The position numbers and the translations under genes were made by a program. Below, in pieces: positions 6,629 to 34,469 of a stretch of 35,072 bases of DNA. Each line of letters begins with the position of its first letter. The first letter of the stretch is position 1. This DNA is from Marinilabiliaceae bacterium. GTDB lineage: Bacteria; Bacteroidota; Bacteroidia; Bacteroidales; Marinilabiliaceae. The notes under the pieces were generated by a model. It ran no database searches. It was not told where the DNA came from and saw only the letters and a list, made by a program, of their open reading frames with translations. The stretch spans positions 1 to 35,072 of the forward strand of contig JABUTU010000089.1 in NCBI GenBank assembly GCA_021443545.1, read 5' to 3'.

Positions 6629-6892
6629 TTATATCGTTATTCGTTATTCGTTATATCGTTATTCGTTATTCGTTATTCGTTATTCGTTATATCGTTATTC
6701 GTTATATCGTTATATCGTTATATCGTTATTCGTTATATCGTTATATCGTTATTCGTTATATCGTTATTCGTTATTCGTTATTCGTTATATCGTTATTCGT
6801 TATTCGTTATATCGTTATTCGTTATTCGTTATATCGTTATTCTTTATTCGGTATATCGGTATATCGGTATATCGGTATATCGGTATTCGTTA
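6629..6892. repeat. Mixed 7/8-base tandem repeat array 2 (TTATTCG and TTATATCG)
   Basis: Nearly the whole spacer between the methylesterase stop and the GH105 start is a tandem array. From 6629 to about 6840 it alternates irregularly between the heptamer TTATTCG and the octamer TTATATCG (roughly 28 units). It then changes to about four GTATATCG octamers and a GTATTCG. Read with the genes (minus strand) it is A-rich, built of CGAATAA and CGATATAA. It has no coding potential beyond spurious open frames. Confidence 0.96.
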
Positions 6893-6901
6893 TTGTTATG
6901 G

Positions 6902-26484: not shown

Positions 26485-26590
26485 GAAATTACGAAATTAC
26501 GAAATTACGAAATAACGAAATAACGAAATAACGAAATTAACTAAATAACCAATTATCGAAATTAACAAAAATATCGAAGTAACGAAAAAA
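26485..26590. repeat. Octamer tandem repeat array 3 (GAAATTAC / GAAATAAC)
   Basis: Octamers GAAATTAC and GAAATAAC repeat head to tail from 26485 (six to seven near-perfect units), then degrade into CTAAATAA, CCAATTAT, CGAAATTA and related units until about 26590. The array fills most of the region between divergent rmuC and the 807-residue gene. In the direction of the rightward gene it is A-rich, the same polarity as array 4. A TATTTTTG box for rmuC (minus strand, 26573-26566) lies inside its degenerate end. Confidence 0.93.
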
Positions 26591-29110: not shown

Positions 29111-29197
29111 AGAATAACGAAATAACGAAATATCAAAATATCAAAATATCGAAATATCGAAATATCAAAATGTCGAAATAACGAAATAACGAAAAAA
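29111..29197 (+). repeat. Octamer tandem repeat array 4 in front of the ubiquitin-like gene
   Basis: About eleven 8-base units: GAAATAAC at both ends, GAAATATC, AAAATATC and AAAATGTC in the middle. The array is followed by a run of about twelve A and the leader ACAATAATC directly before the ATG at 29212. It fills nearly the whole 114-base spacer. Confidence 0.95.
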
Positions 29198-29211: not shown

Positions 29212-30321
29212 ATGAAAAAGTATCTACTAACTTTGTTGAGCGCATTCTTGTTGCCTCTGTTCTCGGCTTCAGCGATGACTATTTTTGTAGGGGTTATTGA
29301 TCCATTCACTAATGAAAAATTAAGGACTATTACCCTCGATGTTGAGCCTTCAGACACCATTGAAAACGTCAAGTCTAAGATTCAGGATCAAGAGGGTATA
29401 TCACAAGAGTACCAGAGGTTGATTTTCGCTGGAAAACAGCTTGAAGACAATCGCACACTTGCCGATTACAATATTCAGAAAGAGTCGACACTTCACGTCG
29501 TGGATGGTTCGTTTCAGATCTCAGTAGTCATTGAGAATGATCAAGATCAGGAGCCCAAGACGATTACTCTTGTTTGTTTGTCAAATAAGACAATAGGAGA
29601 AGTCAAGGCGAGGATTGAGCAAATTGAGAGCATACCAGTCGCATTTCAGAAGTTGTCTTTTGCTGGCGAAGTGCTTAAAGACGAAAATACACTTGCCTCT
29701 TATGAGATGAGAAGGGGAGACCAGCTTAAACTCGAAATATTGCCGATTAAGATTACTGTCAAGACACTGAATAACGACACGTATGACATTGATTGTGAGA
29801 TAACCAACACAGTCAAGGAGATCAAGCAGAAGGTACAAGAGAAAACTGGTATAGAGTCAGACCGGCAGGAGTTGGAGTTTGCAGGTAAAACGCTTGAAAA
29901 TGGCATGACACTTGCCTATTATGATGTTACAGATGAGTCGACGATTAATCTCATAATATCGTATCCAGAGAGGCAGATTTTTGTTAAGAGTCTGACAGGG
30001 AAAACCATTACTCTTGATGTCAAGCAGTCTGACAAAATCTTAGATGTAAAGGATAAGATTACCGACAAAGAGGGGATACCTGCAGATGAGCAGAAGTTGA
30101 CTCTCACCATGGGAGGAGAGGAACTTGATGACAGTAAGACGCTTGATGACTACCAGATTAAGAAAGAGTCGACACTATATCTCGTGCTAAAAAATTCAAC
30201 GGCGATTCGCAATGTTGAGGGCAATGTTCCGGCAGGAAAAGTCGTTAAGACCATTGAGAATGGCAAGATAGTCATAATCCTCGATGGCGTCAAGTACGAC
30301 CTAACGGGCCGAGAACTGTAA
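29212..30321 (+). CDS. Secreted protein of four tandem ubiquitin-like domains
   Basis: A 369-residue protein. Residues 1-21 are a signal peptide ending ASA; cleavage there would leave Met22 as the first residue, equivalent to Met1 of ubiquitin. Four ubiquitin-like domains follow: D1 22-99, D2 100-178, D3 179-252, D4 253-329, then a 40-residue tail (330-369). D1 is strikingly close to eukaryotic ubiquitin: by eye 49 of 59 positions are identical from TITL to the end of the fold, including [21 protein letters not shown] and [11 protein letters not shown], so the equivalents of Ile44, Lys48 and Lys63 are kept. D4 is also close ([34 protein letters not shown]), D2 and D3 much less so. No domain ends in LRLRGG, so conjugation is not expected. 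The tail ([26 protein letters not shown], cited as residues 344-369) resembles tails of secreted Bacteroidales proteins. It is probably co-transcribed with the 807-residue secreted protein. B. fragilis encodes a single-domain secreted ubiquitin (BfUbb); this is a tandem relative. Function is unknown. Confidence 0.92.
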
Positions 30322-30383
30322 GGACGTAGTAGAGAGAAGAGATACTACTCCCTCGGAAGAGAATAGATTATTAATGGAATTGA

Positions 30384-30420
30384 CGATGGATGTTCGCAAG
30401 GATGTCCATCGTTTTTGTTT
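30384..30420 (+). terminator. Terminator of the ubiquitin-like gene
   Basis: CGATGGA (30384-30390) pairs with TCCATCG (30405-30411) around a partly paired loop and is followed directly by TTTTTGTTT. It lies 63 bases beyond the stop codon. Confidence 0.85.
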
Positions 30421-33167: not shown

Positions 33168-34469
33168 TTATCTGAGTATAATATTTTCCAGACGCCAAAT
33201 CAGGTAGAGCGGAATATTTACGAGACTGTCGTCCTCCTTAAAGGGTAGTAAGCTTGTGCGGACTGCCTTGCGCGGAGAGTAGCGACTGCGATAAACTTTC
33301 AGGCTTTGTGAGTGGACATTTGTTCCTGATTTGCATTCGAGCGGAAAAACATCGTAGCCGTCGGTAATCAGGAAATCAATCTCTGCATTTGATTTGGATG
33401 TCCAATAATAGGAGGCTTTGATATTTTTTTGAGAGGACAATTCCTGTATGACAAATTGTTCGGCAAGCACCCCTTTGAATTCTTCAAGCAAACGATTTCC
33501 TATGATAACAGACCTTGGTGAAATTCCGCTCATACGTCGTAACAAGCCCACATCGAGCAAAAAAATCTTGAAAGCACTTCGGTTAATGTAGTTGTTGAGA
33601 GGAATTCCTGGCTTTTCAACCAAATACGAAATGCGTGTCATTCCGGCATCGCCAAGCCACATGAGCGCATCTTCGTACTCCCTTGCACGTGCGCCATCAC
33701 GAATTACACCATATATGAACTTTCTGTTTTCCTTAGAAAGTTGTTTGGGAATCGATTGCCAGACCGCTCTGATCTTTGCTGCAAGTTGTTTGGGAGTATG
33801 CTTTGAGAAATCTTGTTCATAAGAGTTGATCAGCCTGTCCTGCGCAATGTCAACTTGATTAAAATCCTTATCATTTAGCCATACATTAACAACTCCCGGC
33901 ATGCCACCCACGACAATATATTGTTTGAACAGGTCAAAAAGTTTGGTTTGAAAAGGCGTGGCATCCGAGTCGTTTTCCAAATACTCAACAAGCAACTCTT
34001 CGTTGTTTGCCCAAAGAAACTCTTTAAAAGTCAATGGTTCGAGTCGTAAAAAATCCACCTTGCCAACGGGAAAAGATGTCCCTTCGTGAAGAGCAATTCC
34101 CAAAAGAGAGCCTGCTGCGCAGATGAAATACTCTTGAGCCTCTTCGGCAAAATATTTTAATGATGTTAGGGCGCGTGGTTGCTCCTGAATCTCGTCAAAA
34201 ATAATCAACGTATTTTCGGGAGTGATTTTTATTTTTGAAAATACTTCAAGAATAGAGATTAGCCTTGTCGGATTGATTTCACCATCGAAATATGAGCGCA
34301 ATTCTTCGGCACGTTCAAAATTGACGTAAACAACGTTTTTAAAGCATTGATTGCCAAATTCTTTCAAAAGCCAGGTTTTTCCGACCTGCCTTGCCCCGAG
34401 AAGAATGAGTGGCAAACGATTGTTCTTATTCTTCCAGTCGATTAAATCCGACATTAAATCTCTTTTCAT
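33168..34469 (-). CDS. AAA ATPase with DUF4143 C-terminal domain
   Basis: A 433-residue full-length member. Walker A is LLGARQVGKT (23-32), Walker B NTLIIFDEIQE (about 86-96), with the AGSLLG and LEPLTFKEFL blocks of the family, an arginine-rich helical middle (KHTPKQLAAKIRAVWQSIPKQL), and the DUF4143 domain with NRSAFKIFLLDVGLL, GVLAEQFVIQEL, YYWTSKSNAEIDFLI and PLECKSG. The last block has the D...ExK order of PD-(D/E)XK folds. It is the closest relative of the pseudogene at 10.2-10.8 kb: both start MKRD and end with PLYLIWRL or PLYMIWRL. 33-base-spaced repeats and a promoter box precede it. The role is unknown; the family is frequently gained and lost in Bacteroidetes. Confidence 0.92.
   Translation of the reverse strand: MKRDLMSDLIDWKNKNNRLPLILLGARQVGKTWLLKEFGNQCFKNVVYVNFERAEELRSYFDGEINPTRLISILEVFSKIKITPENTLIIFDEIQEQPRALTSLKYFAEEAQEYFICAAGSLLGIALHEGTSFPVGKVDFLRLEPLTFKEFLWANNEELLVEYLENDSDATPFQTKLFDLFKQYIVVGGMPGVVNVWLNDKDFNQVDIAQDRLINSYEQDFSKHTPKQLAAKIRAVWQSIPKQLSKENRKFIYGVIRDGARAREYEDALMWLGDAGMTRISYLVEKPGIPLNNYINRSAFKIFLLDVGLLRRMSGISPRSVIIGNRLLEEFKGVLAEQFVIQELSSQKNIKASYYWTSKSNAEIDFLITDGYDVFPLECKSGTNVHSQSLKVYRSRYSPRKAVRTSLLPFKEDDSLVNIPLYLIWRLENIILR

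Follow-up and report, generated by a model that had tools for sequence, protein, structure and literature searches.

Four tandem ubiquitin domains behind a predicted signal peptide in a bacterial protein, and a wider set of prokaryotic single-ubiquitin proteins

Here we describe a bacterial gene whose product carries four head-to-tail ubiquitin domains (D1-D4) behind a signal peptide. The protein fits the layout of a wider set of prokaryotic proteins, namely signal peptide, ubiquitin and other sequence, but it has four ubiquitins. The wider class of single-ubiquitin proteins is a larger finding than the four-unit array. We consider it possible, though somewhat short of probable, that prokaryotes of many phyla display ubiquitin outside the cell with at least five kinds of anchor or docking and with the ubiquitin surface under selection, the array being a polymerised, diverging member. 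For the protein itself we favour, at close to an even chance, a head-and-stalk reading: on the surface or secreted, it would present D1 as its head, a non-covalent ligand, on a stalk of the diverged D2-D4.

The window, which means the whole stretch of DNA analysed, was an entire contig (C28) of 35,072 bases. It belongs to a genome of 2.85 Mb that was 88.28% complete with 0.35% contamination. An ATG-started open reading frame at 29212-30321 on the plus strand gave a translation of 369 amino acids in the ORF list. A signal peptide, four ubiquitin-like domains and a tail of about 40 residues had been proposed in a preliminary description, and the same order was found here with a tail of 42 residues. 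The signal peptide, residues 1-21 (29212..29274, plus strand), was read by eye from a hydrophobic core and an A-x-A type cleavage site, which adjoined Met1 of the ubiquitin (M22). The domain borders were also drawn by eye. On the plus strand, D1 (residues 22-100, 29275..29511) was identical to human ubiquitin at 54 of 73 positions, D2 (101-178, 29512..29745) at 29 of 73, D3 (179-251, 29746..29964) at 31 of 73 and D4 (254-327, 29971..30192) at 46 of 74. The first loop of D1 carried about six extra residues, and D4 had two residues inserted after position 45. With these by-eye borders, the unit spacing was 79, 78 and 75 residues, and that of polyubiquitin is 76. Inside the gene, the longest listed ORF on the opposite strand was 85 aa, and another frame checked across the gene was full of stops. 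A terminator-like hairpin of 14 pairs followed by a T-rich stretch lay at 30382..30413 (plus strand, a consensus match only). Directly before the start codon, at 29113..29194, an 8-bp unit (AATATCGA) was repeated about ten times, and this array may affect expression of the ubiquitin gene. Tandem Repeats Finder gave further intergenic arrays of short units (7-25 bp) at 26485-26587, 6629-6899 and 183-298. One short-unit array lay upstream of a gene for an 807-aa protein and another right before the ubiquitin gene start.

The domains were identified as ubiquitin by profile and structure database searches. The Pfam ubiquitin family PF00240 matched the protein in four stretches with 256.2 bits (E 1.1e-77), and its curated cut-off of 25.4 bits was exceeded by the protein and by each domain singly. 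The E values in the search of the own genome were 6.8e-24 for D1, 5.5e-14 for D2, 1.1e-19 for D3 and 2.1e-20 for D4. When the whole protein was searched against the PDB, D1 led the matches. The homology claimed for D2-D4 was confirmed with each of these domains alone, where the best single-ubiquitin chain was matched at E of about 1e-8 (D2), 1e-15 (D3) and 1e-23 (D4). These matches to solved ubiquitins predicted a beta-grasp-type ubiquitin fold. The likeness had been ascribed to true ubiquitin rather than to ThiS or MoaD; this held, and neither family appeared in the Pfam matches at E 0.01. Identity of D1 at 49 of 59 core positions had been estimated, and 49 of 60 were counted over residues 38-97 in the alignment of the PDB search. 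Each domain was closer to human ubiquitin than to any other domain, the inter-domain maximum being 36 of 72 (D1-D4).

The surface residues were then read in each domain. D1 retained I44, H68, V70, K48 and K63 of ubiquitin. The Ile44 patch (L8/I44/H68/V70) read IIHV in D1, QSKE in D2, LENI in D3 and LTYV in D4. Three of the four patch residues were retained in D1 only, and the core positions were hydrophobic in D1-D4. The domain ends were VVDGS, LEILP, IISY and VLKNST, with Gly-Gly at none. Ubiquitin without Gly-Gly cannot be conjugated or processed. Because Gly-Gly was absent from every domain end, conjugation or polyubiquitin-style cutting of this protein would be impossible. Cys122 and Cys195 were the only cysteines, and there was no C-terminal Cys. 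The sole D-[ST]-[AILVMT] triplet, which we take to be the exact residue set for glycosylation, was D-T-I at residue 48, within D1. Triplets of this type are described as the glycosylation sites of BfUbb, the ubiquitin of Bacteroides fragilis (PMC3352274).

Export of the protein is predicted from the signal peptide. The 42-residue tail (30193..30318, plus strand) is a possible sorting or anchoring signal. It resembled the C-termini of two further proteins encoded in the genome, at E 2.8e-5 for one and, weakly, at 0.0149 for the other; by eye one of the two looked like an alpha-amylase. The genome encodes SprA of the type IX secretion system (T9SS), with 618.8 bits. The tail gave no match to the T9SS sorting models TIGR04183 and PF18962 (NCBIfam at E 0.1, Pfam at 0.01). 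Since it matched no known T9SS tail model, we infer the route across the outer membrane only conditionally.

PF00240 searches were made in related genomes, in sets that overlap and with counts that all include the own genome (G000). Matches were found in 4 of 15 genomes of the genus, 5 of 61 relatives, 6 of 71 genomes of the family, 5 of 393 of the order sample (three above the cut-off), 3 of 395 of the class sample (two above the cut-off) and 6 of 395 of the phylum sample. None of the 14 control genomes was matched. Several matches in one open frame were found in the own genome only, and G771 had two matches in two separate short ORFs. Single-ubiquitin proteins with a signal peptide, read by eye, occurred in G002, G003 and G011 of the same genus. 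In G002 and G003, a divergent InlB-type repeat came after the signal peptide and one ubiquitin. Two ubiquitin proteins were encoded by G011: a repeat protein of 1963 aa that had ubiquitin at its N-terminus and ended in a T9SS tail (L013, 9607-15498, minus strand), and a 567-aa protein with ubiquitin at an internal position (L012, 12386-14089, minus strand). G022 and G068 had the layout of signal peptide, single ubiquitin and T9SS tail. The patch was lost in the G002/G003 ubiquitin, where the alignment gave Y44, Q68 and A70. This pair had dN 0.036 and dS 0, and therefore no constraint on the patch surface was demonstrable in the own genus. A genome-contig scan with the full-length protein, which finds close relatives only and may omit the own or very near genomes, gave no match.

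A profile scan of genome contigs found at least 445 relatives among 587 stretches. The set analysed (L027-L106) was the best 80 of these at least 445, all prokaryote-titled loci with 84 ubiquitin-bearing ORFs, and because of this choice it is biased to the most ubiquitin-like. In the best 80 of at least 445, a signal-peptide-like segment adjoined ubiquitin in 71 of 84 ORFs by our own simple rule, and residue -1 of these 71 was Ala in 58 and Gly in 8. The other 13 ORFs of this same best-80 selection had no such segment; three of them ran off the contig end (L067, L077, L082), and five (L083, L104, L106) began at the ubiquitin or within three residues of it. One ubiquitin per ORF was found in 83 of the 84; the exception was L070, without signal peptide, whose ORF was a four-unit polyubiquitin in a prokaryotic bin. 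Of the 80 loci, again the best of at least 445, only 7 had a domain ending in Arg-Gly-Gly. L044, L052, L070 and L104, which kept Arg-Gly-Gly and lacked a signal peptide, look like eukaryotic contamination of bins. In Dyella sp. OK004 (L049, 4905-5231), a signal peptide was followed by a full ubiquitin ending in Arg-Gly-Gly, and therefore this would be an exported ubiquitin retaining the conjugation end. L083 (titled Acidimicrobiales) and L106 (titled Bifidobacterium breve) each had an adjoining pair of similar ubiquitin-fusion ORFs. A four-domain array with a signal peptide was encountered a single time, in the own genome.

The single-ubiquitin proteins of the set had the same start, a signal-peptide-like segment and then ubiquitin, and varied C-terminal parts. 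Thirteen proteins were scanned for domains. Seven of them had a module for anchoring, sorting or docking, and five kinds of module were represented. These were an autotransporter barrel (L034, L059), IPTL-CTERM (L045, L095), a T9SS tail (L069), dockerin (L072) and S-layer homology (L092). Since the modules stand behind ubiquitin in these seven, ubiquitin sits at the end far from the anchor. Other domains were SdrD_B repeats (L050), an MBG domain (L101) and a choice-of-anchor U domain (L047), and the domain scan found nothing beyond ubiquitin-type matches in L031, L037 and L079. Among the matches listed, the record titles named Bacteroidota, Verrucomicrobia, Proteobacteria, Clostridia and other Gram-positives, and cyanobacteria, and archaeal titles belonged to assembled bins only. 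For some records contamination is hard to invoke, since they come from isolates or stand on very long contigs (Dyella OK004, Saccharibacillus sacchari, Verrucomicrobia IMCC26134). Many of the remaining records, with the archaeal ones among them, are bins whose assignment could be wrong. A recheck of 18 genomes gave one match in 16 and two matches in two. In the sample of the Ruminococcus albus family, 11 of 297 genomes had one match each. These counts suggested that the genes are widespread yet rare within groups. On the Ruminococcus albus 7 plasmid NC_014824.1, the matched protein was annotated 'ubiquitin family protein'.

Selection was estimated from dN/dS in 16 chosen gene pairs, which are not independent because some share a member. 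The ratio of the ubiquitin part was below 0.1 in nine pairs, 0.16-0.56 in four and undefined in three. Examples of the lowest type were L031/L066 (0.021), L035/L048 (0.021) and L049/L056 (0.031). Both parts had a ratio in 10 pairs, and ubiquitin was the more constrained part in seven and the less constrained in three (L036/L062, L059/L088 and the two L102 genes). Over 82 ORFs from the best 80 of at least 445 loci, the number with the residue retained was 77 for I44, 77 for H68, 77 for L8 and 68 for V70. Compared with human ubiquitin at 72 positions, these ORFs had a median of 6 differences. E16D was present in 56 and S57A in 32 of these 82 ORFs.

The origin of the array was considered over 71 ubiquitin columns. 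Apart from E16D and S57A, no derived state was common to D1 and D2, D3 or D4. Because D1 and D2-D4 share almost no derived states, we infer that the array arose when its units were still near ubiquitin, whether a polyubiquitin was imported or an early duplication took place. Five derived states, read as V7, D16, E39, Y40 and A57, were common to D1 and the G003 ubiquitin, and V7, E39 and Y40 were absent from D2-D4. The five common states are weak evidence for orthology of D1 with the N-terminal ubiquitin of the genus. A phylogeny of the domains had been proposed in the preliminary description, and it was answered in part. In a tree made by a quick method (111 rows, 71 columns), 80 of 108 inner branches were open and D1-D4 were not firmly placed. 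A single clade of D1-D4 was compatible with the data (p-AU 0.67), and the best such tree had the higher likelihood.

Ubiquitin is taught as an intracellular tag of eukaryotes. A later paper on BfUbb is reportedly that of Jiang et al. in Nature Microbiology. BfUbb (Ubb) is described as a eukaryotic-like ubiquitin without the terminal glycine, whose signal peptide ends at ubiquitin residue 1 (PMC5705921, PMC3352274). The signal peptide directly before residue 1 is common to BfUbb and the tandem-ubiquitin protein. B. fragilis was called one of a few bacteria with eukaryotic-like ubiquitin in the 2017 paper on BfUbb (PMC5705921). BfUbb, the known comparison offered for this protein, was too narrow as the lone case, since many phyla appear in the record titles of single-ubiquitin proteins with a signal-peptide-like start. 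Bacterial PolyUbl operons and BilA (ISG15-like) have tandem ubiquitin-fold domains in one protein, and these systems are described with E1, E2 and JAB genes (PMC11354881). Unlike these, the tandem-ubiquitin protein has a signal peptide, and no E1, E2 or JAB gene was found among the six flanking proteins scanned. Eukaryotic polyubiquitin consists of linker-free head-to-tail repeats. Unlike it, the present protein has a signal peptide and diverged repeats, lacks Gly-Gly and would not be processable. An exported chain of four ubiquitins had been called undescribed, and among the papers listed by the literature searches none was seen to describe such a chain or exported ubiquitin across phyla, although a description may exist in subscription papers. 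If the class is real, its members would share a ubiquitin-binding partner outside the cell, for example in grazing protists or competing bacteria. The BfUbb oddity would then become a recurrent system of 'ubiquitin display', testable in the isolates Dyella, Ruminococcus albus 8 and Saccharibacillus sacchari. The four-unit array would mean that exported ubiquitin domains can multiply and diverge inside one protein.

In the explanation that we favour, a eukaryotic-type ubiquitin would have been gained horizontally, come to follow a bacterial signal peptide and been multiplied to four units. Export would run via Sec and signal peptidase, and the protein would probably reach the surface or the medium; its tail would then be a sorting signal, of the T9SS type or similar. 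Lacking Gly-Gly, it would be neither conjugated nor processed. D1, at the free N-terminus with most of its recognition face retained, may act as a non-covalent ligand head, and its putative partner would lie outside the producing cell and belong to another microbe, a protist or a host. D2-D4, with the hydrophobic core kept and much of the recognition face lost, would mainly form an elongating stalk. We favour this reading because the core is kept in D1-D4 with the patch mostly kept only in D1, because the signal-peptide-then-ubiquitin layout recurs in 71 of the 84 ORFs (best 80 of at least 445) and in the single-ubiquitin proteins of G002, G003 and G011, and because anchor-type modules stand behind ubiquitin in 7 of 13 scanned proteins. 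It also draws on the low dN/dS (below 0.1) of the ubiquitin part in 9 of 16 pairs, on the similar tails and SprA of the genome, and on six flanking proteins without E1, E2 or deubiquitinase. Against it, the extra residues of D1 lie in the loop bearing patch L8, the patch is lost in G002/G003, 4 of 13 defined dN/dS values were 0.16-0.56, ubiquitin was less constrained in 3 of 10 pairs, and the tail had no T9SS model match.

Other functions were weighed against this reading. A diffusible antibacterial like BfUbb would reach related strains and block an essential target, and BfUbb is an exported bacterial ubiquitin inhibiting growth of some B. fragilis strains (PMC5705921). The patchy distribution in 4 of 15 genus genomes fits a competition gene. 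However, BfUbb is one 76-residue domain with a C-terminal Cys, whereas the tandem-ubiquitin protein has four domains and a tail. The BfUbb-type mechanism is doubtful because the C-terminal Cys is absent, and we regard the suggested role in competition between bacteria as unlikely. Imitation of linear chains had also been suggested: acting on a protist or animal host, the protein would titrate ubiquitin receptors or deubiquitinases there. The near-polyubiquitin spacing and the identity of D1 fit this, but the Ile44 patch is lost in D2 and D3 and Gly-Gly stands at no joint. Prochlorococcus and Dyella are free-living taxa, and related exported ubiquitins are also found in records titled with these names. 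Linear-chain mimicry is weakened by the lost recognition surfaces of D2 and D3, and we hold it to be quite improbable. The ubiquitin folds might instead do no more than serve a surface protein as stable spacers, the ubiquitin surface itself being unused. Surfaces diverge while the core stays in D2-D4 and in G002/G003, and ubiquitin is internal in the 567-aa protein of G011. This is hardly to be expected of D1, which is still 54/73 identical to ubiquitin with I44, H68, V70, K48 and K63, nor of the ubiquitin domains elsewhere that had dN/dS below 0.1 in 9 of 16 pairs, and the spacer reading seems unlikely.

An artefact, either a chimeric contig or eukaryotic contamination, is very improbable. 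The gene has a G+C of 0.417 versus 0.478 for the window, and its codon usage was the fourth most distant among 25 window genes. However, codon-usage deviation was equal or greater in other window genes, bacterial genes flank the ubiquitin gene on both sides, and the gene has a signal peptide. In addition, other proteins encoded in the genome end in sequences similar to the tail, and ubiquitin genes were also found in 3 of 14 sister genomes.

The ubiquitin gene was the only one of the genome with a PF00240 match at E 0.001, and the contig ended 4.7 kb downstream of it. The six flanking proteins scanned with Pfam were DUF4861, RmuC, the 807-aa protein with a weak LRR_5 match, a DUF4143 ATPase and two without a match; E1, E2 and deubiquitinase families gave no match among them, and the neighbouring E1, E2 and JAB genes of PolyUbl/Bil operons were not found there. 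The Bil models of PADLOC matched neither five flanking proteins nor the tandem-ubiquitin protein (P0001), and P0001 was matched by nothing else in PADLOC at E 0.01 or in PHROGs at E 0.001. PF00179 (E2) had no match in the own genome, which is 88% complete, and none in the control genomes either. An operon with the upstream 807-aa gene was rejected. Genes of about 800 aa precede the G002/G003 ubiquitin genes, and no conserved gene pair was found because BLASTP showed no similarity of these to the 807-aa gene. Phage origin was rejected with 0 matches in 50,697 phage records, and plasmid origin with parts of the protein matched by 3 of 72,556 plasmid records. Viral contigs gave no match to the full-length protein, and the ubiquitin profile gave 21 ubiquitin loci in them. 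Two of these contigs had three (L132, 2011-2748) and two (L133, 2944-3489) ubiquitins per ORF, with the signal peptide absent by eye, and they are perhaps of eukaryotic virus origin. The DUF4143 AAA ATPase of the window (33168-34469, minus strand) had a strong match, of 572 bits, to the candidate defence models PDC-S01 in PADLOC.
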